A stretch of 64,000 nucleotides of DNA from Micromonospora okii (GTDB lineage Bacteria; Actinomycetota; Actinomycetes; Mycobacteriales; Micromonosporaceae), in assembly GCF_020884795.1 (NCBI RefSeq), contig NZ_BBZF01000016.1:1-64000 (forward strand), given 5' to 3'. Below the pieces are notes generated by a model. It did not search any database. It saw only the letters and a program-made list of their open reading frames with translations, and was not told where the DNA came from. The translations under genes were made by a program, and so were the position numbers. Shown piece by piece: positions 2,357-16,707 of this stretch; the stretch's first letter is position 1, and every line of letters begins with the position of its first letter.

Positions 2357-3040
2357 TTGAGCCGCGTTCTGGTGGTCGAGGACGAGGAGTCGTTCTCCGA
2401 CGCCCTGTCGTACATGCTCCGCAAGGAGGGCTTCGAGGTCTCGGTCGCAGCCACCGGCACCTCCGCCCTCACCGAATTCGACCGGACCGGCGCCGACATC
2501 GTGCTGCTCGACCTGATGCTGCCCGAGATGTCCGGCACGGAGGTGTGCCGGCAGCTCCGCCAGCGCTCCCACGTGCCGATCATCATGGTCACCGCGCGGG
2601 ACAGCGAGATCGACAAGGTGGTCGGCCTGGAGATTGGGGCCGACGACTACGTCACCAAGCCGTACTCGCCCCGGGAGTTGGTCGCCCGCATCCGGGCGGT
2701 GCTGCGCCGGCGGAACCCGGAGGTTACCGAGTCGGGCGCGCCGACCCTGGCGGCCGGCCCGGTGCGGATGGACGTCGAGCGGCACGTAGTGACCGTCGGC
2801 GGGGGGCCCGTCCAGCTTCCGCTCAAGGAGTTCGAGCTGCTGGAGCTGCTGCTGCGCAACGCCGGCCGGGTGCTGACCCGGGGGCAGCTCATCGACCGGG
2901 TCTGGGGGGCCGACTACGTCGGCGACACCAAGACCCTGGACGTGCACGTCAAGCGGCTGCGCTCGAAGATCGAGCCGGAGCCGTCCGCGCCGCGCTTCAT
3001 CGTCACCGTCCGGGGCCTGGGCTACAAGTTCGAGCCGTAG
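2357..3040 (+). CDS. regX3: Response regulator RegX3 (OmpR/PhoB family)
   Basis: 227 residues: receiver domain (acidic pocket EDE at 8-10, phospho-acceptor Asp52 in LLDLMLP, Lys101 in YVTKPYS) followed by a winged-helix DNA-binding domain ending in VTVRGLGYKFEP. It is the cognate regulator of the upstream kinase and activates phosphate-scavenging genes through PHO-type sites. Similarity to mycobacterial RegX3 is near-continuous through the receiver and the RVWGADYVGDTKTLDVHVKR region. The start is TTG at 2357, preceded by AGGAAAGG; no nearby in-frame ATG/GTG gives a complete receiver strand 1. Confidence 0.94.
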   Translation: MSRVLVVEDEESFSDALSYMLRKEGFEVSVAATGTSALTEFDRTGADIVLLDLMLPEMSGTEVCRQLRQRSHVPIIMVTARDSEIDKVVGLEIGADDYVTKPYSPRELVARIRAVLRRRNPEVTESGAPTLAAGPVRMDVERHVVTVGGGPVQLPLKEFELLELLLRNAGRVLTRGQLIDRVWGADYVGDTKTLDVHVKRLRSKIEPEPSAPRFIVTVRGLGYKFEP

Positions 3041-3098
3041 CCGTAGCCGTAGTCGTAGCCGGCCGTCGCGTGCCGCGCCGGCCGTCGCGCTCGGTGAG

Positions 3099-3153
3099 GT
3101 GAGAGGGGCGCCCTTCTCTACCGCAGGCGTTGGGAAGGGGCCCTTCCTTACCT
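3099..3153 (+). repeat. Dispersed GGGGCCC palindromic element, copy B
   Basis: GTGAGAGGGGCGCCCTTCTC, a short spacer with ACCGCAGGCGTTG, then GGAAGGGGCCCTTCC TTACC. It is nearly identical to the reverse complement of copy C at 8003-8058. It lies between convergent genes, and its TTA at 3148-3150 is the TAA stop codon of the minus-strand gene that follows. Confidence 0.8.
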
Positions 3154-3954
3154 GCTGGCCGGGTGGGGGGCGACCTGGCCCTGGCGGTGCCGGGCCGCGC
3201 ACAGCTCGGCGAGCTTCGCGTACGCGGGCGCGCCGATCAGCGCGGTCAGCTCCGGGCCGTACGAGACGTACATCGGCTCGGCGCCGACGTGCGCGTCGGT
3301 CGACGAGGTGCACCACCAGTCGAGGTCGTGCCCGCCCGCGCCCCAGCCCCGCCGGTCGAACTCCGCGAGGGTGGAGATCAGCACCTTGGTGTTGTCGGGG
3401 CGCTTGTGCCAGTCCTGGTCCCGCCGGACGGGGAGCTGCCAGCAGACGTCCGGCTTGTACTCCAGCGGGTGCACCCCGTCGCGCAGCGCCTGGGCGTGCA
3501 GCGCGCAGCCGCCCCCGGCGGGGAAGTCGGCGTCGTTGAGGAAGACGCAGGGGGCGTCGACGTCCCGGGTGGCGGTGCGCCGGGCCGGGTTCTCGCCGTC
3601 GATCGTGTCCTCCTCCGTCCAGTTCCTGAACCCGCGGCGGAAGTGCTGCCAGGTGGCCGGGGTGAGCCGCTTCACCGCCGCGCGGACCCGTTTCTCGTCG
3701 TCGGCGTCGGTGAAGAACGCGCCGTGCGAGCAGCAGCCGTCGGCGGCCCGGCCGGCGACGATGCCGTGGCAGCCCCGGCCGAACACGCAGGTCCAGCGGG
3801 ACAGCAGCCAGGTCAGGTCGGCGCGGACCACGTGCTTGTCGTCCGCCGGGTCGACGAACTCGATCCACTCCCGGGGGAAGTCCAGCCCGACCTCCCGGCT
3901 GCGCGGGTCGTCGGGGTCGTCCACCAGCGCCTGGATCTCGATCTGGCTCGTCAC
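3148..3954 (-). CDS. Cysteine-rich protein, DUF3109/YkgJ-like
   Basis: 268 residues, function unknown. A series of cysteines arranged as C-x5-C (WTCVFGRGC), [22 protein letters not shown] and KPDVCWQLP resembles the zinc- or iron-sulphur-binding cysteine clusters of the DUF3109/YkgJ group. No signal peptide or membrane helix is visible, so it is probably cytoplasmic. The family assignment rests on the cysteine pattern and the phrases [10 protein letters not shown] and [10 protein letters not shown]. The stop codon is contributed by repeat copy B, so insertion of the element may have trimmed or re-set the C-terminus, which ends in a short polar tail. Confidence 0.75.
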
Positions 3955-5917: not shown

Positions 5918-6505
5918 TCAGCTCACCGGGGTCAGCGGGGCGTCGCTGAGCGGGGCGTCTGCCGGGGCGGCGGGCCGCTCGCCGTTCGCGGCGCGCTTGC
6001 GGGCCCGGTGGGCGGCCACGTGCGAGCGGGTCGCGCAGCGCTCCGAGCAGAACCGCCGGCAGCAGTTCGACGAGGTGTCCAGGTAGACGTTGCCGCAGCG
6101 CTCGTCGGCGCAGACCCCGAACCGGGCGCTGCCGTACTCGCAGAGCCAGACCGACAGCCCCCACACCGCGCCGGCCAGGTACTCCGCGCTCACCGAAGCG
6201 CCCCGGCTGGTGACGTGCATGTGCCAGTCGCTGGAGTCGTGCCCCGAGATGCGCGGCTGCACCGGGTACGCCTCGAGCAGCGTGTTCAGTTCCGCCACCG
6301 CCTGGGCGTCGCGGCCCGAGGTGCCGTACTCGAAGACGTCGCGCAGTCGCTTCTGCGCCCGCCGGAAGGTCGCCAGGTCCCGCTCCGCGACCTCGTCGCG
6401 CATCCAGGCGTTGTCCTCGGGAAAGAGGGCCCGCAGGTCGTCGAGGTCGTCCAGCCGGGCGTTGACGAGATCAACTCCGGTCCGGGCGTACGCGTCGAAG
6501 TTCAC
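5918..6505 (-). CDS. CGNR zinc-finger (ABATE domain) transcription regulator
   Basis: 195 residues. An N-terminal helical ABATE-like stress-response domain (about 1-130) is followed by a C-terminal zinc finger: CADERCGNVYLDTS then CCRRFCSERCATR, the C-x4-CGN...C-x3-C arrangement that names CGNR proteins. These are small DNA-binding regulators, often auxiliary to stress or antibiotic genes. The tail after residue 175 is basic then Ala/Pro-rich. It lies 19 bp downstream of the ATP-grasp gene on the same strand and could be co-transcribed with it. Confidence 0.85.
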   Translation of the reverse strand: MNFDAYARTGVDLVNARLDDLDDLRALFPEDNAWMRDEVAERDLATFRRAQKRLRDVFEYGTSGRDAQAVAELNTLLEAYPVQPRISGHDSSDWHMHVTSRGASVSAEYLAGAVWGLSVWLCEYGSARFGVCADERCGNVYLDTSSNCCRRFCSERCATRSHVAAHRARKRAANGERPAAPADAPLSDAPLTPVS

Positions 6506-6524: not shown

Positions 6525-7691
6525 TCACGTCAGTCGCGGCGCGTCGATGTAGTGCGGCAGGAACCGCGAGTAGTTGTCGGTGATCAGGCTCGCGCTCTCC
6601 CGCAGCCCGGCGCCGGCCGGCTCGCCGCCGACGACCCAGCTCCCCAACACCACGTGGTTGCCGTCGAAGCTCGGCAGGGCCCGGAACTGCTGGTAGCAGA
6701 AGCCCTCGTCGCCGTACTGGCTCGGGTTGGTGATCTCCCCGGCGGCCGTGACGATCCGCACCGAGCCGCCCTCGCGGCCGAGCAGCGGCTTCGCCACGTA
6801 CTCGGTCATGCCCCGGGGCGAGTCCAGGTAGGCGGGGAGGAGGTAGTCGTGGCCCGGGTACAGCTCCCAGAGCACCGCGAGCAGCGCCTTGTTGGACAGC
6901 AGCAGCTTCCACGCCGGCTCGATCCAGGTGGTCGGGGTGCCCGGGTCCAACGCCAGCGGCCCGTACGGCTCGGTCAGCATCCACTCCCAGGGGTACAGCT
7001 TGAAGCAGGTGGTGACCGGCCGGTCGGCGGCGTCGACGAAGCGCCGGCCGTCCCAGCCGACGTCCTGGATCGCCAGCAGCTCCGCCGCGAGCCCCGCCTG
7101 CCGGGCGGTCTCGGCCAGGTAGCCGGCGGTCATCTGGTCCTCGCCCGACTCGTCCTCGTTCGAGAAGGCCACGTGCACCCGGCCGTCGTGCAGGCCCGCG
7201 CCGATCTTCGCCCAGGTGGCGACGAGGCGCTCGTGCAGGCTGTTCCACTGGTCCGCCTCGGGGCGGGTCTCCTCCAGCCAGAACCACTGCGCGATGCCCG
7301 CCTCGACCAGGGAGGTGGGGGTGTCGGCGTTGTACTCCAGCAGCTTCGGCGGCCAGGTGCCGTCGTAGTGCAGGTCGAAGCGGCCGTAGAGGCTCGGCGG
7401 GGCCTCGCGCAGCGAGCGGGCCACCGCCTCGGCCGCCCAGGCGGGGAGGCCGAACTCGGCGTACCGGCGGCGGGCCACCACGTGCTCGGCGGCGGCGACC
7501 GACATTCGGTGCAGCTCCGCGGTGGCCTCCTCCAGCCGCAGCACCTCCTCCAGGCCGAAGGCGTACGCGGCGGTCTCGTCCCAGTACGACATGACCTCGC
7601 CGTCGGGCAGCTCCGTGTCGACGTACACCAGGCCCTGGGAACGCACGCTGGCCTCCCAGTCGGGGCGCGGGGTGACCGCCTCGCGCCGCAC
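6525..7691 (-). CDS. Glutathionylspermidine synthase family ATP-grasp ligase (YgiC/YjfC-like)
   Basis: 388 residues. It matches the C-terminal synthetase half of E. coli Gsp and the stand-alone YgiC/YjfC proteins: RFDLHYDGTWPPKLLEYNAD, EDESGEDQMTAGYLAETARQ, PLLGREGGSVRIV and the ending LGSWVVGGEPAGAGLRES. The fold is an ATP-grasp amide ligase that joins a carboxylate to an amine; actinomycetes lack glutathionylspermidine, so the substrate is open. The GTG start at 7691 gives a family-like N-terminus (VRREAVTPRPDWEA) and lies 1 bp after the stop codon of the lipoprotein gene, so the two are almost certainly translated from one mRNA. Confidence 0.85.
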   Translation of the reverse strand: MRREAVTPRPDWEASVRSQGLVYVDTELPDGEVMSYWDETAAYAFGLEEVLRLEEATAELHRMSVAAAEHVVARRRYAEFGLPAWAAEAVARSLREAPPSLYGRFDLHYDGTWPPKLLEYNADTPTSLVEAGIAQWFWLEETRPEADQWNSLHERLVATWAKIGAGLHDGRVHVAFSNEDESGEDQMTAGYLAETARQAGLAAELLAIQDVGWDGRRFVDAADRPVTTCFKLYPWEWMLTEPYGPLALDPGTPTTWIEPAWKLLLSNKALLAVLWELYPGHDYLLPAYLDSPRGMTEYVAKPLLGREGGSVRIVTAAGEITNPSQYGDEGFCYQQFRALPSFDGNHVVLGSWVVGGEPAGAGLRESASLITDNYSRFLPHYIDAPRLT

Positions 7692-7692
7692 G

Positions 7693-7974
7693 TCAGCCGC
7701 CGCAGGAGGCGAGGTAGGTGCCGAAGCCGCCGCGCTCGGGCACGGCCGCCGTCGCCGGTCGCGGCTCGGTGCGCGCGGTGGCGTCGGTGACCGTCGGCGC
7801 GTGCATCGCCAGCGCCACGGTCCCGCCGCCGCCGACCGGGCCGAGCGCGCAGTCATCGTCGTCGTCATCGGCGGAGGAGGAGGTGTTGCAGCCGGAGACG
7901 GCGAGCGCGAGGGCGGTCAGCGCGCCGAGCTGCACGGTGGCCGACCGCAGTCGGCGTCGGGGGCGTTGTTCCAC
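7693..7974 (-). CDS. Short DUF1190-like lipoprotein with C-terminal Gly-Gly
   Basis: 93 residues. Basic N-terminus, hydrophobic core and lipobox LAVSGC with Cys29 give a clear type II signal peptide. The mature part begins NTSSSADDDDDD, then carries a low-complexity region and ends in ERGGFGTYLASCGG. Enterobacterial YgiB/YjfM (DUF1190), encoded next to the YgiC/YjfC ATP-grasp ligases, also has an RGGFG motif in its tail and ends in Gly-Gly. This looks like a miniature actinobacterial equivalent. The GTG start at 7974 gives a normal signal peptide; the reading frame stays open upstream into repeat copy C. The gene is 1 bp from the downstream ligase gene. Function is inferred only from pairing. 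Confidence 0.72.
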   Translation of the reverse strand: MEQRPRRRLRSATVQLGALTALALAVSGCNTSSSADDDDDDCALGPVGGGGTVALAMHAPTVTDATARTEPRPATAAVPERGGFGTYLASCGG

Positions 7975-8002
7975 GGCATCGTTGTAGCCGATCCGCGCAC
8001 GG

Positions 8003-8058: not shown

Positions 8059-8110
8059 TGGGCCGAGCCCCGGCAACGGCCACGGCGGCGCGGGGGTGCC
8101 CGGGGAGCGT

Positions 8111-8116
8111 TACGCT
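8111..8116 (+). promoter_or_regulatory. -10 element TACGCT, leaderless start of proline dehydrogenase
   Basis: TACGCT lies 6 nt before the ATG at 8123. There is no Shine-Dalgarno sequence. Confidence 0.55.
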
Positions 8117-8122
8117 CGGCCC

Positions 8123-9043
8123 ATGCTCCGTTCCGTCATTCTTGCCGCCTCCCGCTCGGCCCAGATCGAGCGGCTCGTAGCGACGGCTCCCTTCACCCGG
8201 GACGTCGTCCGCCGGTTCGTCGCCGGCGCCGGCACCGGCGACGCGTTGCGCGCGACCCGCGAACTCGCCGCCGCCGGCCTCGCGGTCACCCTCGACAACC
8301 TCGGGGAGGACACCGTCACCGCAGAGCAGGCCACCGCCACCCGGGACGAGTACGTCACGCTGCTCGGGCTGCTCGCCGAGGCCGGGCTCACCCCGGCGGC
8401 CGAGGTGAGCCTGAAGCTCTCCGCCCTCGGCCAGATGTTCGACGAGCAACTCGCGTACGACAACGCGAGGGCGATCTGCGCGGCGGCGGAGCGGGCGGGC
8501 ACCACGGTCACCCTGGACATGGAGGACCACACCACCACCGACTCGACCCTGGACGTGCTGGCCAAGCTCCGTAAGGACTTCCCGTCGACCGGGGCGGTGC
8601 TCCAGGCGTACCTGCGGCGCACCGAGTCGGACTGCCGGGAGCTGGCGTCGGCCGGGTCCCGGGTGCGACTGTGCAAGGGGGCGTACAAGGAGCCGGAGTC
8701 GGTGGCGTACCAGTCGGCCCGCGAGGTGGACAAGTCGTACGTGCGCTGCATGAACATCCTGATGTCCGGCGACGGGTACCCGATGCTGGCCACCCACGAC
8801 CCGCGCCTGATCGCCATCGGCGAGGACCGGGCCCGCTGGTTCGACCGGGGGGCGGACCGCTTCGAGTTCCAGATGCTGTACGGCATCCGGCCGGAGGAGC
8901 AGACCCGGCTGGTGGGCGAGGGCTACACCGTGCGCACGTACCTGCCGTACGGCACCGACTGGTACGGCTACCTGATGCGCCGGCTCGCCGAGCGCCCTGC
9001 CAACTTGACCTTCTTCGGTCGCGCCCTGCTGTCGAAGAAGTGA
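8123..9043 (+). CDS. Proline dehydrogenase (monofunctional, FAD)
   Basis: 306 residues, the size of stand-alone bacterial PRODH. It oxidises L-proline to pyrroline-5-carboxylate with FAD. Recognisable segments: EVSLKLSALGQ, TLDMEDHTTTD, RVRLCKGAYKEPESVAY and the substrate/flavin-contacting C-terminus RTYLPYGTDWYGYLMRRLAERPAN. The ATG at 8123 has a -10 box 6 nt upstream; an upstream start would add a short arginine-rich stretch not seen in the family. No pyrroline-5-carboxylate dehydrogenase gene is adjacent in this window. Confidence 0.93.
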   Translation: MLRSVILAASRSAQIERLVATAPFTRDVVRRFVAGAGTGDALRATRELAAAGLAVTLDNLGEDTVTAEQATATRDEYVTLLGLLAEAGLTPAAEVSLKLSALGQMFDEQLAYDNARAICAAAERAGTTVTLDMEDHTTTDSTLDVLAKLRKDFPSTGAVLQAYLRRTESDCRELASAGSRVRLCKGAYKEPESVAYQSAREVDKSYVRCMNILMSGDGYPMLATHDPRLIAIGEDRARWFDRGADRFEFQMLYGIRPEEQTRLVGEGYTVRTYLPYGTDWYGYLMRRLAERPANLTFFGRALLSKK

Positions 9044-9650: not shown

Positions 9651-9783
9651 GCGTGCTTATCGATCGTTATCTTACCGTGATCTTTGGCGAGGCTGAACGT
9701 GAAAGATTGTCGGCGCGCCCCGCAGCGTGCTCGATCGACTACGTTGTGTGGCTTTCCTTGTTTCTCGCGGAGTGGGAGTACGC

Positions 9784-12700
9784 ATGGTCGGGCACGGGGA
9801 TCTGCGCCTGCTGAGTCGCTGCAGGCGTTCGGTCGCGGTGGTCGTGGCGGCGTCACTGGCGGCGGGGCTGTTGTCCGGTACGCCAGCGACGGCGAGGCCG
9901 TCGGACGACGGGCAGGCACTGCTGCCCCCGGTGTCGCCCGGCCGGTCGGTGAAGGGCGTCAAGCCCTTGCCGACGAACTTCGTGACGCCGGTGGACCAGG
10001 CGAAGTCCAGCCACCGCCCCACGCGGACGGTCTGGCCGAAGGCCGCATCCGCCCAGGTCGACCTGACGGCGTCGGCGGCCAAGCCCGGTACACGGGCGCA
10101 GAAGCCGGCAAAGGTGCGCGCGGCGGGCACTCCGGTGTGGACCCGGCCGGTCGGCGAGGGTGGCCGATACACCGGCCCGAAGCGGCTTGCGGTTACGGTT
10201 GCCGACCGGGCCGCAGCCGAGGCTGCCGGCGTGGCCGGGGTGCTCCTGTCGGTGGCCCCGGCCTCCGAACCCACAGCCGGCACTGTGCAGGTCGGCGTCG
10301 ACTACGCCGAATTCGCCGAGGCGTACGGCGGAAACTACGGCTCTCGACTGGGGCTCGTGCGGCTGCCCGCCTGCGCCCTGACCACCCCGCAGATCGCCGA
10401 GTGTCGCATCGCCTCCCCGCTGCCGTCGATCAACGACATCGCCACCAACTCGGTGTCAGCCGAGGTGGCGCTGACTGCCGCCGGCTCTGTCGCCGGAGCG
10501 CCCGGCACCGCGACGGTGCTGGCAACCGTCGCGACTGCGGACGACGAGGGTGGCAAGGGCGGCACCTACGCCGCAACCGACCTGTCGCCGTCCCAGTCCT
10601 GGAGTGTGGGCGGGAGCACGGGCTCCTTCACCTACTCCTACCCGGTGGAGCTGCCGGCGACCCGGTCGAAGCTGGTGCCGAAGGTCGCCCTGTCCTACGA
10701 CTCCGGCGCCGTCGACGGCCAGACCTCCTCGACCAACGCGCAGGCGTCCTGGGCCGGTGACGGCTGGACGACGCCGAGGTCGTTCGTCGAGCAGACCTTC
10801 GTCTCGTGCAACGACGATCCGGGCGGTAGCCCCTCCCCGGTGAAGACCTACGACCGCTGCTACACCGGCCCGGTCCTGACCATCATGCTGAACGGCTCGT
10901 CGAGCTCCCTGATCTGGGACTCCGCGAAGGAGACATGGAAGCTCCAGAACGACACCGGGGCCAAGGTCACCCGGGTGACCAACTCGGGGAACGGCAGCAA
11001 CACGCACGACAGTGACTACTGGCGGGTTGTCGAGCGTGACGGCACCGTCTACGAGTTCGGGCGTAACCGGCTGCCGGGTTGGAGCACCGGCAAGCCCGAG
11101 ACCAAGTCGGTCGACACAGTTCCGGTCTACTCACCGCACTCGGGAGACCCCTGCTACAACTCGGCCGGGTTCTCGTCCTCGGTCTGCACGGAGGCGTACC
11201 GGTGGAACCTGGACTACGTCAAGGACGTCCACGGCAACGCCATGGCCTACTACTACAAGCAGGACACCAACTACTACGGGCGGAACAAGGGAACCACCGA
11301 CGTCACCTACGTCCGGGACAGCTACCTGACCCGAATCGACTACGGTTTCCGCGACGACGGGGCCTACGGCACGGTTCCGAACCAGGTCGTCTTCAACACC
11401 GCCGACCGGTGCCTCTCCGGCACCTGCCAGCCCCTGAACTCCGCGAACAAGGCGAACTGGCCGGACGTTCCGTTCGACCTGGTGTGCAACTCCGGCACCG
11501 ACTGCCAGGCGTGGAGCCCCTCGTTCTTCTCCACCGTGCGGCTGGCCTCGATCGAGACCAGGCAGTACGACACCGCCACCTCCACGCACAAGAAGGTGGA
11601 CTCGTACGCGCTCGCCCACACCATGCCGGCGACCGGCGACGGGACCTCGCCGACGCTGTGGTTGACCTCGATCACCCGCACCGGTCACGACACCACCTCC
11701 GGCGGCTCCACCGCCGCCATCGCGTTGCCCTCGGTGTCGTTCACCGGGATCAAGTTGGCCAACCGCGTCGACACCGCCGGCGGCCTGCCCAACTTCTACC
11801 GGCAGCGCATCGCCACCATCACCACCGAGACCGGTTCGGTGATCTCGCCCAGCTACGAGCTGCCGGTACCGTGCACGGCTCCGGTGACGACCAGCCCCGC
11901 CTCGAACACGAAGTCCTGCTACCCGATCTACTGGACGCCGAGCGGGTACACCGACCAGCTCCGTGACTGGTTCCACAAGTACGCCGTCACGCGGGTCACC
12001 GCCACCGATCCCACCGGCGGCGCCCCCGCCACGTCCACCAACCACGAGTACGTCGGCGGTGCCGCCTGGCACTTCGACGACAACGAGGTGGTCAAGGCCA
12101 AGTACCGCACCTACGGCCAGTTCCGCGGCTACGGCAAGGTCAGGGTGCGCGCGGGCGACGGGGTCAACGATCCCCGCACGCTCTCCGAGACGACGTACTA
12201 CCGCGGCATGAGCAAGAACAACAACACCACGGTCGTCAACGTCACCGACTCCGCCGGCGGCGTCCACGAGGACGTCGACCAGCTCGCCGGCCGCGAACTC
12301 GAAGTCACGAACCACGTCGGTGACGGCGGTCCCGTCGACAGCTCGACGGTCACCTCGTACTGGGTGTCGGGCGCGACCGCGACCCGTGCCCGCACCGGCC
12401 TCTCCCCGCTGACCGCCACGTTCGCCGCGCCGGCGCGCGTCTGGCGGCGGCAGGCGGTCACGTCCGGCGGCACCACGACCTGGCGGTACAGCGCGACCGA
12501 CAACTCGTACGACGCCTCCACCAGCTCGGCCACGTTCGGCCTGCTCAAGCACACGTATCAGCACACCGTCCCGGCGAACGCCGCCTACGACCGGTGCACG
12601 ACCACGTCGTACGCCGCGCCGAACACGGGACTCAACCTCGTGGGCCTGACCAGCGAGACCGAGACGGTGTCCGTCGCCTGCGGTGGCTACGCCCAGGGCC

Positions 12701-15700
12701 CCTCGGCCACGGCACCCGGCAGCGTGAACACGTTGACGGCCCCGGCCACGGTCGACCGGCCGGCGCAGGTCGTCTCGCACGTGCGGACGCACTACGACGA
12801 TCCCGCCTTCGGCACGGCCTTTCCGCAGGCCGCCGCGCCCACCAAGGGCAACGTCACGATGGTCCGCAAGGCCGCCGACTGGGTCTCCGGGGCATACGTC
12901 TACCAGACCACCGACCGGGCGGAGTTCGACACCTACGGCCGGGCCACCGGTAGCTGGGACGGCAACGGCAACAAGAGCACCGTCAGCTACACGGACAACG
13001 CCGTCGGGCTCACCACCGCGCTCACCGTCACGAACGCCGAGGGGCACGCCACCGTCAACACCGTCACGCCGCTGCGGAACCTGACCACCGCCAGCACCGA
13101 TCCGAACGGCATCGTCACCCGTAACCAGTACGACGCGCTGGGCAGGCTCACCGGGGTCTGGCTCGCCTCCCGGGCGACCAGCAACCCCGCCCACGTCAAG
13201 CACACCTACACGGTGTCGAAGACCGGGCCGACGGCCACGATGACCCAGACGCTCAACAACAACAGCGGCTACCACAAGTCGATCACCATCTACGACGCGC
13301 TGCACCGGGTGCGGCAGAAACAGGAGGAGAGCCCGGCGAGCGGCAGGTTGGTGACCGACTCCTTCTACGACAGCCGTGGCTGGGTGCGTGCCACGTACAA
13401 CGGCTGGTGGGATGCTTCCACCTCCCCGGACACCACCCCGGTCCATACCGACAACCTGCTGAAGAAGGCGCTGAACCAGACCTTCAACACGTACGACGGG
13501 CTCGGCCGGGTCATCCTGGCCGAGAGCGCCCGCGACGGCGTCGTGAAGTCGGCGACCCGGACCGTGTACAACGGCGACCGGACGACGGTGATCCCGCCGA
13601 CGGGCGGCACCACCACCGCCGTGGTGACCGACCCGATGGGGCGGACCGAGAAGCAACTCCAGTACGTCTCCGCGCCGACCCTGAACAGCCCGACCAACCC
13701 GTTCACCGGCGTCTACCACCTGACCGGCGGCACGACGGTCGCCACCAGTCACGGCTACGACGCCGGCGGCAACCCGGCCACCCTGACCGACCCCGCCGGC
13801 AACGTCTGGACCAGCCAGTACGACCTGCGTGGGCAGGTGGTCAGCAAGGACGACCCGGACGCCGGCACCAGCACGATGCGCTACGACGGCGCCGGCAACC
13901 TCGTCGAGGCCACCGACTCCAGGGGCAGGACGACCTCCTCCACGTACGACAAGATCAACCGCAAGACGGCCCACCACGCCGCGGCGGTCTCGGCGCAGTC
14001 GACGGGCAACCGACTCGCCGCCTGGGTGTACGACAACGACAACCTCGCCGTGGCCGCGATGGCCAACCCGGTCGGCCGGCTGACCACGTCCACCGCCTTC
14101 CGTAACGGTGCCGAGTACCGCACCCAGTGGACCGGATTCAACGCCTTCGGCTCCTCGACCGGCGAGACGGTCACCATCCCGGCGACCGAAGGGCCGCTCG
14201 GCAACACCTACGGTTACACCCACAGCTACAACAGCGTGACCGGCAAGCCGCTCACCGACGGCTACCAGGCCCGGGGCGGTCTGCCCGCCGAAACCGTCTT
14301 CCGCGGCTATATCGGCGTCCTGGACATGCCGAACTCCCTCGCCGGCCTCGCCGGCTACGCCACCTCGACCGAGTACGACGCCTGGGGCCGGGTTCTCCAG
14401 GGCGTCGGCGGCCCGACCACCAGCGCCGCCGTCGTCTCCAACGAGTACGACGACCACAACGGCCGGCTCACGCAGCAGACCATCAGCCGCGCGACCACCA
14501 CGGCCACCAGCATCGGCAAGCAGAACTACGAGTACGACCTGTACGGGAACATCCTCAAGACTGCCGACACCCGCTACCTGCCGGGCGCGGCCTCGGAGAC
14601 CGAGTGCTATCGGTACGACGCGCTGCGCCGGCTGACCAGGGCGTGGACCGCCACCGACGACTGCGCGGTCGCCCCCACGACCGGCAACCGGGCGATGGTC
14701 GGCAGCGGGATCGGCACCACCAGCGCGTACTGGACCGAGTGGGAGATCGATTCGCTCGGCAACCGGACCAAGCAGACCCAGTACTCGCTCTCCGGCGGCA
14801 CCGACACCACCACCACCTACGCGTACGACGGCAACGGTGGTGGGCAGCCCCACACGCTGACGGGCACGACCACCACCGGCGGCCTCACCGGCAGTACGTC
14901 CTACGCCTACGACAGCGCCGGCAACATGACCACCCGCCAGGCCGGGCAGGGCACGCAGACCCTCGCCTGGGACGACGCCGGAGAGCTGACCTCGGTGACC
15001 GGCGGCACCGACGGGGACAGCTCGTTCCTGTACGACGCCGACGGCAACCTGCTCATCCAGCGCGACCCGGGAACCACGACCCTGTACCTGTTCGGCGAGC
15101 AGATCACCCTGAACACCGCCACCCAGAGCCTGAGCGGCGTCCGCTACTACTCACTGCCGAGCGGGGCGGTGGCCCACCGGACGGGCAGCGGCACCGCGTA
15201 CGGGTTCAGCGTGCCGGACCACCAGGGCACGCCCAGCCTCTACCTCGACAGCACCGCCCAGCCGACCTGGCGGCAGTACACCCCCTACGGCGCGCCGCGC
15301 GGTGCCACCGTGGCGGCCCCGGACAACCGGGGCTTCCTCAACCAGCCGCTCAACCCGAACACCGGGCTGACCCAGGTCGGCGCCCGCAACTACGACCCGA
15401 CCATCGGCCGGTTCGTCTCGCTCGACCCACTACAGGACCTGGCCGACCCGCAGCAGTGGAACGGCTACTCGTACGCCAACAACTCCCCGGTCACCCTCAG
15501 CGACCCATCGGGGCTGATCCCCGACGACTGTAGGTACTTCGACTGCTTCGGCTACGACCCGAAGAAGGGTTGCCCGCACGGCTGCGGCACGCCGGAGAAC
15601 GTCCAGTGGGGAGAGGACCAGAAAAAGGGAAGTTCCAAGCCCAATAAGGAGAACCACCCGCGCGACCTCGGCCATGGCATCCGGGTGCCGGAGAGCGTGC

Positions 15701-16707
15701 CGTTCGAGGAGTTCATGCGCCGCTGGCGGGAGCAGCGGGCGAAGTACTTCGCCACGATGAGCGAGGGCAACAACGACGACTGGATGCGGAACGACACCGC
15801 CAAGCTCGCCATGAACATCTGTCATGAGATGGGCAGGCCCGGCGGCTGTCAGCAGTGGATCGAAGAACTCTTCTGGGACGTGCACTACAAGTGGGGTGTC
15901 GACAACCTGCCCAGCGACGACCGGATCGTCAGCGGCGTTCCCGGCGTGCCCGTCCGCGGCGGCAGCCAGGGAGGCAGAGGCACCGGCGCGCGCCGCGGCG
16001 GCTGCATGAGCTTCAGTGGTGACACCGAGGTCCTCATGGCTGACGGCACCACCAAAAAGCTTGAAGAGATTCGCATCGGCGATGAGGTGGTTGCCTCCGA
16101 CCCCGAGACCGGCGAGCAGGGGCCCCGCACCGTCACCCGTGTCTGGGTGCACAAGGACGACCTGATCGACCTTGAGGTCGGCGGTGCTCTCCTCACCACC
16201 ACGGAGGACCACCCGTTCTGGAACCAGACCGATCGCCAGTGGCAGCGCGCCGATCAACTCGACCGAGGTGATCTGACGCTCAGCTCAGAGGGTAAATCAG
16301 GTGCTGTTGGCGGCCTGATGTTCTTCTCGGCACGTTCCTCCCTCGCCTACAACCTTACTGTTGACGGCATTCACACGTACTATGTTCTCTCGGGCGCCAT
16401 CCCCGTGCTCGTGCATAATGACAACACGGCTCCGTCGCCGAATATAATTCAGCGTGGAATCGAACAAATTAAGGACGGAACCCTGCAGCAGCGTGTCAAT
16501 CCGGATGGTACGCCGGATTTTTACAAGGGTGGCGACAATCGCAAGACAGCATGGTGGGCCGGTGCTAAGATCTACGCGCCGGACCCAAAGAATAACGCGT
16601 ATAGAATCCTTGAAAAGAATGGTCAGTATGCCTGGATCGGTCCAGACGGAAAGAATCCCAACGGGCATAACTATAACAAGCTCAATCCGTTCGTGCCGAA
16701 GTGCTGA
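9784..16707 (+). CDS. Secreted RHS-repeat polymorphic toxin with Hint domain and C-terminal toxin module
   Basis: 2307 residues. A signal peptide is clear (basic start, then RSVAVVVAASLAAGLLSG and cleavage near ATA). The long middle has WapA/RHS-type sequence with many YDxxGNLxxxTD repeats, closing with the RHS core around residues 1861-1912 (GARNYDPTIGRFVSLDPL ... SYANNSPVTLSDPSGL). Next is a Hint autoprotease: Cys2074 opens block A (CMSFSGDTEVLMADG), TEDHPFW is block B, and VLVHN ends at Asn2212. The residue after it is Asp, so it should cleave rather than splice. Residues 2213-2307 form a short, unrecognised C-terminal module, the likely toxin. ATG 9784 has GGAG upstream. Base composition drops clearly over the last 300-400 bp, a usual sign of module exchange. 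Confidence 0.9.
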   Translation: MVGHGDLRLLSRCRRSVAVVVAASLAAGLLSGTPATARPSDDGQALLPPVSPGRSVKGVKPLPTNFVTPVDQAKSSHRPTRTVWPKAASAQVDLTASAAKPGTRAQKPAKVRAAGTPVWTRPVGEGGRYTGPKRLAVTVADRAAAEAAGVAGVLLSVAPASEPTAGTVQVGVDYAEFAEAYGGNYGSRLGLVRLPACALTTPQIAECRIASPLPSINDIATNSVSAEVALTAAGSVAGAPGTATVLATVATADDEGGKGGTYAATDLSPSQSWSVGGSTGSFTYSYPVELPATRSKLVPKVALSYDSGAVDGQTSSTNAQASWAGDGWTTPRSFVEQTFVSCNDDPGGSPSPVKTYDRCYTGPVLTIMLNGSSSSLIWDSAKETWKLQNDTGAKVTRVTNSGNGSNTHDSDYWRVVERDGTVYEFGRNRLPGWSTGKPETKSVDTVPVYSPHSGDPCYNSAGFSSSVCTEAYRWNLDYVKDVHGNAMAYYYKQDTNYYGRNKGTTDVTYVRDSYLTRIDYGFRDDGAYGTVPNQVVFNTADRCLSGTCQPLNSANKANWPDVPFDLVCNSGTDCQAWSPSFFSTVRLASIETRQYDTATSTHKKVDSYALAHTMPATGDGTSPTLWLTSITRTGHDTTSGGSTAAIALPSVSFTGIKLANRVDTAGGLPNFYRQRIATITTETGSVISPSYELPVPCTAPVTTSPASNTKSCYPIYWTPSGYTDQLRDWFHKYAVTRVTATDPTGGAPATSTNHEYVGGAAWHFDDNEVVKAKYRTYGQFRGYGKVRVRAGDGVNDPRTLSETTYYRGMSKNNNTTVVNVTDSAGGVHEDVDQLAGRELEVTNHVGDGGPVDSSTVTSYWVSGATATRARTGLSPLTATFAAPARVWRRQAVTSGGTTTWRYSATDNSYDASTSSATFGLLKHTYQHTVPANAAYDRCTTTSYAAPNTGLNLVGLTSETETVSVACGGYAQGPSATAPGSVNTLTAPATVDRPAQVVSHVRTHYDDPAFGTAFPQAAAPTKGNVTMVRKAADWVSGAYVYQTTDRAEFDTYGRATGSWDGNGNKSTVSYTDNAVGLTTALTVTNAEGHATVNTVTPLRNLTTASTDPNGIVTRNQYDALGRLTGVWLASRATSNPAHVKHTYTVSKTGPTATMTQTLNNNSGYHKSITIYDALHRVRQKQEESPASGRLVTDSFYDSRGWVRATYNGWWDASTSPDTTPVHTDNLLKKALNQTFNTYDGLGRVILAESARDGVVKSATRTVYNGDRTTVIPPTGGTTTAVVTDPMGRTEKQLQYVSAPTLNSPTNPFTGVYHLTGGTTVATSHGYDAGGNPATLTDPAGNVWTSQYDLRGQVVSKDDPDAGTSTMRYDGAGNLVEATDSRGRTTSSTYDKINRKTAHHAAAVSAQSTGNRLAAWVYDNDNLAVAAMANPVGRLTTSTAFRNGAEYRTQWTGFNAFGSSTGETVTIPATEGPLGNTYGYTHSYNSVTGKPLTDGYQARGGLPAETVFRGYIGVLDMPNSLAGLAGYATSTEYDAWGRVLQGVGGPTTSAAVVSNEYDDHNGRLTQQTISRATTTATSIGKQNYEYDLYGNILKTADTRYLPGAASETECYRYDALRRLTRAWTATDDCAVAPTTGNRAMVGSGIGTTSAYWTEWEIDSLGNRTKQTQYSLSGGTDTTTTYAYDGNGGGQPHTLTGTTTTGGLTGSTSYAYDSAGNMTTRQAGQGTQTLAWDDAGELTSVTGGTDGDSSFLYDADGNLLIQRDPGTTTLYLFGEQITLNTATQSLSGVRYYSLPSGAVAHRTGSGTAYGFSVPDHQGTPSLYLDSTAQPTWRQYTPYGAPRGATVAAPDNRGFLNQPLNPNTGLTQVGARNYDPTIGRFVSLDPLQDLADPQQWNGYSYANNSPVTLSDPSGLIPDDCRYFDCFGYDPKKGCPHGCGTPENVQWGEDQKKGSSKPNKENHPRDLGHGIRVPESVPFEEFMRRWREQRAKYFATMSEGNNDDWMRNDTAKLAMNICHEMGRPGGCQQWIEELFWDVHYKWGVDNLPSDDRIVSGVPGVPVRGGSQGGRGTGARRGGCMSFSGDTEVLMADGTTKKLEEIRIGDEVVASDPETGEQGPRTVTRVWVHKDDLIDLEVGGALLTTTEDHPFWNQTDRQWQRADQLDRGDLTLSSEGKSGAVGGLMFFSARSSLAYNLTVDGIHTYYVLSGAIPVLVHNDNTAPSPNIIQRGIEQIKDGTLQQRVNPDGTPDFYKGGDNRKTAWWAGAKIYAPDPKNNAYRILEKNGQYAWIGPDGKNPNGHNYNKLNPFVPKC

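Follow-up and report, generated by a model that had tools for sequence, protein, structure and literature searches.

We found that a gene for an ATP-grasp ligase of the YgiC/YjfC type in Micromonospora okii is paired with a gene for a small lipoprotein ending in a conserved Gly/Ser tail, and that this pairing is genuine and much more widespread than one would gather from the analysed stretch. The gene pair, the conservation of the tail, the catalytic residues of the ligase and the co-loss of tail and ligase function were directly established. The best explanation, in our view a fairly probable one, is that an amide is formed at the C-terminus of the lipoprotein by its dedicated ligase, probably with a polyamine, before export.

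The two genes lie on the reverse strand of the window, by which we mean the whole analysed stretch of 64,000 nucleotides. The lipoprotein gene is upstream, and a single base (7692) separates its stop codon from the GTG of the ligase. The sequence-only reading had placed a YgiC/YjfC-like ligase 1 bp from a 93-residue lipoprotein, and coordinates, Pfam match and structure matches all agree with this. The features of the pair are as follows.

7696-7974, reverse strand: lipoprotein gene, 93 amino acids, GTG start at 7974 and TGA stop at 7693-7695; proposed substrate, with homologues adjoining the ligase elsewhere.
7888-7899, reverse strand: lipobox VSGC (residues 26-29) after an Arg-rich n-region and a hydrophobic stretch, assigned by eye.
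7852-7869, reverse strand: run of six Asp (residues 36-41) behind the Cys predicted to be lipid-anchored, read from the sequence.
7720-7734, reverse strand: RGGFG motif (residues 81-85), proposed recognition element of the ligase, from comparison of homologues.
7696-7719, reverse strand: C-terminal octapeptide TYLASCGG with a free Gly carboxylate, proposed site of amide formation, from tail conservation.
6528-7691, reverse strand: ATP-grasp GSP_synth ligase, YgiC/YjfC-like, 388 amino acids, GTG start at 7691 and stop at 6525-6527.
7329-7382, reverse strand: stretch with R104, D106, E119 and N121, equivalent by alignment to R316, D318, E330 and N332 of E. coli GspS.
6888-6890, reverse strand: K268, equivalent by alignment to GspS K498.
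6789-6791, reverse strand: K301 of the KPLLGREG loop, equivalent by alignment to GspS K533; a gap in three partnerless ligases of the family census.

The lipoprotein has the signal peptide with lipobox (RRRLRSATVQLGALTALALAVSGC) expected of a bacterial lipoprotein, as judged by eye. An Arg-rich n-region, a hydrophobic stretch, VSGC, six Asp and a low-complexity middle are followed by the C-terminal end RGGFGTYLASCGG, also written ERGGFGTYLASCGG. Across 10 close relatives, D36-D38 and D40 were invariant and D39 and D41 nearly so. The AlphaFold model of the protein was without secondary structure (pLDDT 54). The label "DUF1190-like", given to it by the sequence-only reading, held for the tail but not for the body: a Pfam search with the window lipoprotein (P0002) gave no match to DUF1190 (PF06693) at E up to 10, and the NCBIfam DUF1190 model PRK11653 reached E=0.12 over model positions 177-201 and protein residues 63-87 only. 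Membership in DUF1190 was ruled out by profile, the tail alone being common to both. Two other candidate explanations of the sequence were rejected. The window tail has no hydrophobic and charged segments of the kind that the accessible part of PMC6219818 names for the GlyGly-CTERM/rhombosortase signal. General twin-arginine export was considered in view of an RRRLR in the window lipoprotein, but YgiB and YjfM have no clear consensus by eye.

Several features around the pair were also noted. A TACAAC six bases before the lipoprotein GTG (window 7975-7995, reverse strand) is possibly the -10 element of a leaderless transcript, and in many Micromonospora loci there is coding-like conservation of the form IGYN(D/H)xV just upstream of the lipoprotein. 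A CGNR zinc-finger protein (5918-6505, reverse strand; Pfam zf-CGNR and ABATE) is encoded downstream of the ligase, and a proline dehydrogenase (8096-9043, forward strand; Pfam Pro_dh) diverges upstream of the lipoprotein. Further on, positions 9727-16707 (forward strand) encode a 2326-amino-acid YD-repeat (RHS-like) protein that has CMSFSGDTEVLMADGTTKKLEEI, a Hint-like segment, close to the C-terminus and by its look is of the polymorphic-toxin type.

The window ligase matched the Pfam family GSP_synth (PF03738) with E=2e-141 and 472 bits, against a cut-off of 29.3, over positions 1-371 of 371. Its nearest solved relatives were E. coli YgiC and YjfC, YgiC (7uk8) being the best match by sequence (E=8.7e-86). 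Foldseek comparison of its AlphaFold model (pLDDT 86.5) gave TM scores of 0.90 to YjfC (7uk6), 0.87 to YgiC (7uk8) and 0.82 to GspS (2io8). Residues R316, D318, E330, N332, K498, K533 and R598 of GspS, which we take to be the ATP-grasp catalytic residues, all have equivalents in the window ligase (R104, D106, E119, N121, K268, K301 and R364, numbered by counting from the printed alignment). The N-terminal amidase domain that marks a bifunctional GspS was absent from the 388-residue protein, in which GSP_synth was the sole Pfam match above cut-off. The ligase has no signal peptide by eye and is the product of the one GSP_synth gene in the M. okii genome. In the window, then, an intact ligase adjoins a lipoprotein with an RGGFG-like motif and a small C-terminal residue.

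The pair can be compared with known systems. GspS and trypanothione synthetase share the ATP-grasp synthetase fold (TM 0.82 to 2io8) and the aligned catalytic residues with the window ligase, but GspS has the amidase domain that the window ligase lacks. RimK-type protein C-terminal ligases and pupylation also involve ATP-dependent amide formation at or with a protein C-terminus, but they use other enzyme families and other acyl and amine partners, and no lipoprotein substrate. E. coli YgiBC is like the window in gene order, ligase fold (TM 0.87), checked catalytic residues, RGGFG and GG end, whereas YgiB has 223 residues and a DUF1190 body (E=2.9e-55) and the window lipoprotein has 93 residues and no such body. 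E. coli YjfLMC likewise has a YjfC-like ligase beside a lipoprotein (YjfM) with RGGYG and a GG end, but YjfLMC and the PspA/DUF350/DUF1190/ATP-grasp operons in the part of PMC11237479 available to us add DUF350 and PspA-like genes, whereas the window pair stands alone.

We surveyed 152 actinobacterial loci, as the sequence-only reading had proposed: 80 named loci, 29 from a draw of Micromonosporaceae, 40 from a draw of the phylum, the window locus and two plasmid records. Partners were picked blind to the tail, as the same-strand open reading frame (ORF) with the highest third-position G+C near the ligase start and with its stop from 260 bases before to 60 bases after that start. Third-position G+C was used because a strict lipobox filter missed many partners, for example in Nonomuraea. 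One locus with 81 bases upstream (L049) was left out of the partner counts, and at another (L102), which failed the G+C filter, the partner was added by eye. The picks at L179 and L180 were removed as antisense ORFs of proline dehydrogenase, and an ORF beside L216, with a Ser end by chance, was judged antisense likewise from its similarity to them. Ligase and tailed partner were found to co-occur in 149 of the 151 loci with upstream sequence, the adjoining ORF ending in two Gly/Ser residues, usually after an RGGFG-like motif. The last two residues of the 148 script-picked partners were GG in 107, GS in 40 and SS in one. The tailed lipoprotein beside the ligase in an Arthrobacter locus (L184 2868-3374, WP_227934263.1, 168 amino acids) is mis-annotated as a tRNA-dihydrouridine synthase.

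The tail signature persisted when the ligases were dereplicated. At about 90% identity, all 77 partners ended in [GS][GS] and 69 of the 77 had an RGGFG-type motif within the last 45 residues; at about 75%, the corresponding counts were 31/31 and 25/31. Control ORFs from the same loci, which were G+C-filtered open frames of which a few may not be genes, had a [GS][GS] end in 13 of 515 cases, the motif in 9 and both in none. Permuting the last 12 residues gave an expectation of 34.8 [GS][GS] ends in 77 versus the 77 observed; the Gly/Ser-rich composition of the tail accounts for part, not all, of these ends. Lack of conservation at the C-terminus would have spoken against the sequence-only reading, and in the bacterial loci read these residues were conserved.

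In further comparisons, these lipoproteins were best conserved in the tail and differed in their bodies. All 44 distinct Micromonospora-type tails ended in Cys-Gly-Gly. Their last 15 codons showed 0.20 synonymous versus 0.076 amino-acid-changing differences per pair and codon, and are under purifying selection; the preceding 25 codons showed 0.135 synonymous versus 0.614 changing, a figure inflated because they were not gap-aligned. When 16 partners of actinobacterial, proteobacterial and phage origin were aligned, Gly83, Gly85 and Gly92 were invariant and Phe84 and Gly93 nearly so; two of the five invariant columns of this alignment (28 and 46), partly out of register, were excluded as evidence. 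Asp and Glu were both absent from the segment after the motif in 68 of the 76 dereplicated partners counted, and the D+E content of this segment was 2.5%, versus 10.9% upstream (L099, one of the 77, had no motif by the pattern used and was left out of this count). Since the post-motif tail is poor in Asp and Glu, the C-terminal carboxylate is the likely target.

We then asked how tail and ligase are distributed in one family. A GSP_synth match was present in 66 of 121 Micromonosporaceae genomes, and the census read the 75 genes or fragments behind these matches. The checked residue set was kept in 70 (69 complete, one cut by a contig end), and all 70 of these intact ligases had an upstream partner with a Gly or Ser end. 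Three genomes each have one ligase gene without a lipoprotein gene, and in all three of these ligases K268 and the K301 loop have been lost. Two of these decayed loci (L179 and L180) have the neighbours of the window, proline dehydrogenase on one side and the CGNR protein on the other, but only 133 and 69 bases lie between the proline dehydrogenase start and the ligase start, so there is no room for a lipoprotein gene. In G021, one of the genomes with a decayed ligase, there is a second ligase that is intact and has a partner of its own (L149). Every one of the 29 genomes with a P0002 match at E<=1e-3 carries the ligase, and none of the 55 Micromonosporaceae genomes without the ligase has such a match. 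By these comparisons of residues, the tail accompanies catalytically intact ligases and is missing beside the three decayed ones. A fragment (L236) and a distant GSP_synth-like gene of 28 bits (L235) were set aside in the census; the latter keeps most of the checked residues and has no partner on its 4.6-kb contig, both of which count against the amide reading.

A variant of the motif was found in the same family. In 25 of the 70 partners, [VI][VI]G replaces GGFG, and their ligases form exactly one clade of 25 (FastTree, support 1.0). Such a match between tail type and ligase clade is predicted by cognate recognition, but co-inheritance alone could give it too.

Pairs of this kind recur in the Pseudomonadota, Bacillota and phages that were sampled, and the bodies of their lipoproteins differ. 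The sequence-only reading had also pointed to E. coli YgiB, which does carry RGGFG, ends in MGG and lies beside YgiC; YjfM, with RGGYG and a WGG end, lies beside YjfC in the same manner. Of 5426 complete E. coli genomes, 5375 have the ygiBC pair, for which we know of no physiological role. In 16 of 18 further bacterial loci (14 Pseudomonadota and two Bacillota), a neighbouring gene product ended in [GS][GS]. The 16 comprise YgiB, YjfM, seven plasmid loci, six more (some of these six found through a G[FYILVW]G pattern) and Methylorubrum; the Methylorubrum partner, missed by the regular expression, was seen upstream on reading the ORFs (SRGGFSSGGGSSGG). The order is reversed, with the ligase first, in four rhodobacterial loci (L196 among them), and the two Bacillus-type partners have a short SGIG motif only. 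Two Azospirillum loci had a divergent ligase and no partner; in the one aligned (L189), His and Arg stand in place of both lysines. When 29 ligases were aligned, R104, D106, E119, K268, K301 and R364 proved to be kept in all 26 that have a tailed partner, the exceptions at other positions being Gln for N121 in L193 and Trp for R306 in L173, and all three partnerless ligases have lost K268 and K301.

We found the ligase in 117 of 50,697 phage records. In all seven phage stretches read, a lipoprotein-like gene ending in GG or GS precedes the ligase on the same strand, immediately in three stretches, at a distance of one gene in three and of three genes in one. Six of the seven lipoproteins have the GGFG motif. 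In Achromobacter phage Motura (L203 719-4312), homospermidine synthase, the tailed lipoprotein and the ligase are encoded in a row, a gene run that appears to be a genetic link to a polyamine; a DUF350 protein, identified by profile, follows just behind the ligase. In Aeromonas phage LAh_8, an ion-channel protein (L205 1570-1944, Pfam Ion_trans_2) directly precedes the tailed lipoprotein, and the annotation divides the ligase (L205 2495-3703) into two genes, 2495-3511 and 3524-3703; this copy may therefore be split or frameshifted. The phage tailed lipoproteins at L206 1572-2108, L208 1322-1891 and L204 1344-1952 match phrog_13808 or phrog_3739, which are function-unassigned PHROG families. 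A GSP_synth gene is listed for Aeromonas phage 44RR in the part of PMC1524935 available to us.

In IMG/VR, a motif-tailed ORF, chosen regardless of its last residue, was near the ligase in 57 of 67 distinct loci. A relaxed motif, in a search that demanded a Gly, Ser or Ala end, added three partners (DGFG, TGGFG and VGGFG), bringing the count to 60 of 67. The last residues of the 60 tails were Gly (29), Ser (19), Ala (9) and Glu (3); viral tail ends are less strict than bacterial ones. Seven of the 67 loci had no partner within the fetched stretch. L296 and L304 have short upstream sequence, and L345, with an ORF 9.8 kb off and a ligase match over the first half only, was set aside in the viral counts; L288, L289, L322 and L337 have 1.7 to 10 kb of upstream sequence, no partner and all ten checked residues, which is evidence against the amide reading.

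At E<=0.01, 140 phage records contain a YgiB-like protein, most of them from phages of Enterobacterales, and no Klebsiella, Erwinia, Cronobacter or Escherichia phage is named in the ligase tally of 117 records. Alignments that end near residue 177 seemed to show a loss of the tail in these proteins, but for the two whose full sequence was read this was rejected as due to the alignment: the YgiB-like lipoproteins of phages 4MG and Deimos-Minion keep RGGFG and the GG end. From these two proteins and the two tallies, YgiB-carrying Enterobacterales phages may rely on the host ligase. A YgiB-like lipoprotein of unknown role is mentioned for phage Moon in the accessible part of PMC4319498.

A conserved tail beside an intact ligase could also be a docking or regulatory element, the ligase making a separate peptide-amine metabolite while the unmodified tail binds or controls the enzyme or reports the state of the envelope. 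Conserved adjacency and co-loss suit any obligate partnership, and the RGGFG-like motifs of the viral tails, in loci that were found by motif, are stricter than the very last residue. However, docking would not require a conserved end, whereas all 77 dereplicated loci have Gly/Ser as the last two residues; the tail is depleted of other carboxylates, and homologous enzymes are reported to use peptide substrates (Pederick 2023, from its title). We consider this alternative unlikely.

A short conserved end behind a variable, disordered body would equally fit a precursor, cut at or near RGGFG, whose C-terminal peptide, once released, is coupled by the ligase to an amine in the manner of ribosomally made peptide products. 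Some peptide natural products do have known ATP-grasp ligases, but the annotated neighbourhoods read, several records being unannotated, contained no recurrent peptidase gene (one rhomboid protease and one M23 peptidase were seen), the window pair stands alone and a cytosolic precursor would hardly be expected to have a lipobox, so that we regard this as quite improbable. It is very improbable that the tail serves an envelope partner, such as a DUF350 or PspA/band-7 system, with the ligase nearby incidentally: DUF350 is annotated beside the pair in seven records and lies near it by profile in phage Motura, PspA-like genes are near the pair in five of the records with DUF350 and such operons are described in the available part of PMC11237479, but the window has no DUF350 neighbour, the genome's two DUF350 genes are on other contigs, and tail and ligase function, as judged by residues, vanish together in three genomes.

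Amide formation at the tail, which the sequence-only reading had offered as speculation, gains from the conserved tail, its association with intact ligases and the scarcity of other carboxylates; the looser viral ends (Ala, Glu) do not favour it. ATP-grasp enzymes activate a carboxylate and then pass it to an amine, and in GspS the Gly carboxylate of glutathione is the donor and spermidine the acceptor. The two genes would form a module in which a lipoprotein, disordered and targeted to the membrane, has an ATP-grasp ligase dedicated to it. This ligase would recognise RGG[FY]G near the lipoprotein C-terminus and activate the C-terminal carboxylate (that of Gly; here of Cys-Gly-Gly) as an acyl-phosphate with ATP and Mg2+. 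An amide bond would then link the carboxylate to an amine, for which spermidine or a related polyamine is the likeliest candidate. The best assignment of roles is recognition through the motif and modification at the small C-terminal residue. By sequence the ligase is cytosolic and the lipoprotein exported; modification would therefore have to precede the end of translocation, taking place in the cytosol before or during export, with the tail leaving the cytosol last. The modified lipoprotein would carry a cationic C-terminus at the envelope, which, speculatively, could help it bind acidic lipids or polymers. We infer the lipoprotein as the peptide substrate, as well as the amine, the timing and the role. 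That enzyme and lipoprotein would end in different compartments, and that the timing would have to be special, counts against the amide reading.

Spermidine as the acceptor is supported by the title of Pederick 2023, on peptide-spermidine ligase activity of E. coli YgiC/YjfC, by the description of YgiC and YjfC as peptidylpolyamine synthetases in the accessible part of PMC12568646, and by the gene run of phage Motura. A published table (PMC12506659, seen in part) gives YgiC as without GspS activity. The M. okii genome gave no match to AdoMet decarboxylase, which leaves its source of spermidine doubtful and counts against the reading; another amine is therefore possible in this organism. Apart from the ligase, a DUF350 gene and a gene for a spermidine-synthase-like protein are clustered on contig C13 of M. 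okii (326500-336500, L214). The third product of this cluster is, by its position, presumably DUF4247-like. Among the gene models read in two stretches, no further tailed substrates were found at the spermidine-synthase/DUF350 locus.

The family itself is already known. The available part of PMC11237479 describes operons in which a GspS-related ATP-grasp ligase occurs with DUF350 and a "metal-chelating lipoprotein (DUF1190)", and names a potassium channel in the bacterial operon. No paper in the literature searched, part of it accessible as excerpts and with Iyer 2009, Sui 2012, Li 2019 and Pederick 2023 outside its scope, names the lipoprotein C-terminus as the ligase substrate. Added here are the tail signature, the miniature non-DUF1190 partner, the co-decay and the viral distribution. 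The chances seem to us about even that C-terminal polyamination of envelope lipoproteins is widespread and unrecognised, each ligase having its own tailed lipoprotein, with phages of several hosts carrying the whole pair and Enterobacterales phages carrying the substrate alone and borrowing the YgiC/YjfC of the host. The tail is a specific candidate substrate for the reported peptide-spermidine ligases, and its signature provides a means to find partners that profiles miss. Reading the tail in this way would explain why lipoproteins without a common body share one common end. If true, it would mean that lipoproteins are modified at the C-terminus in sampled members of three bacterial phyla and in phages.
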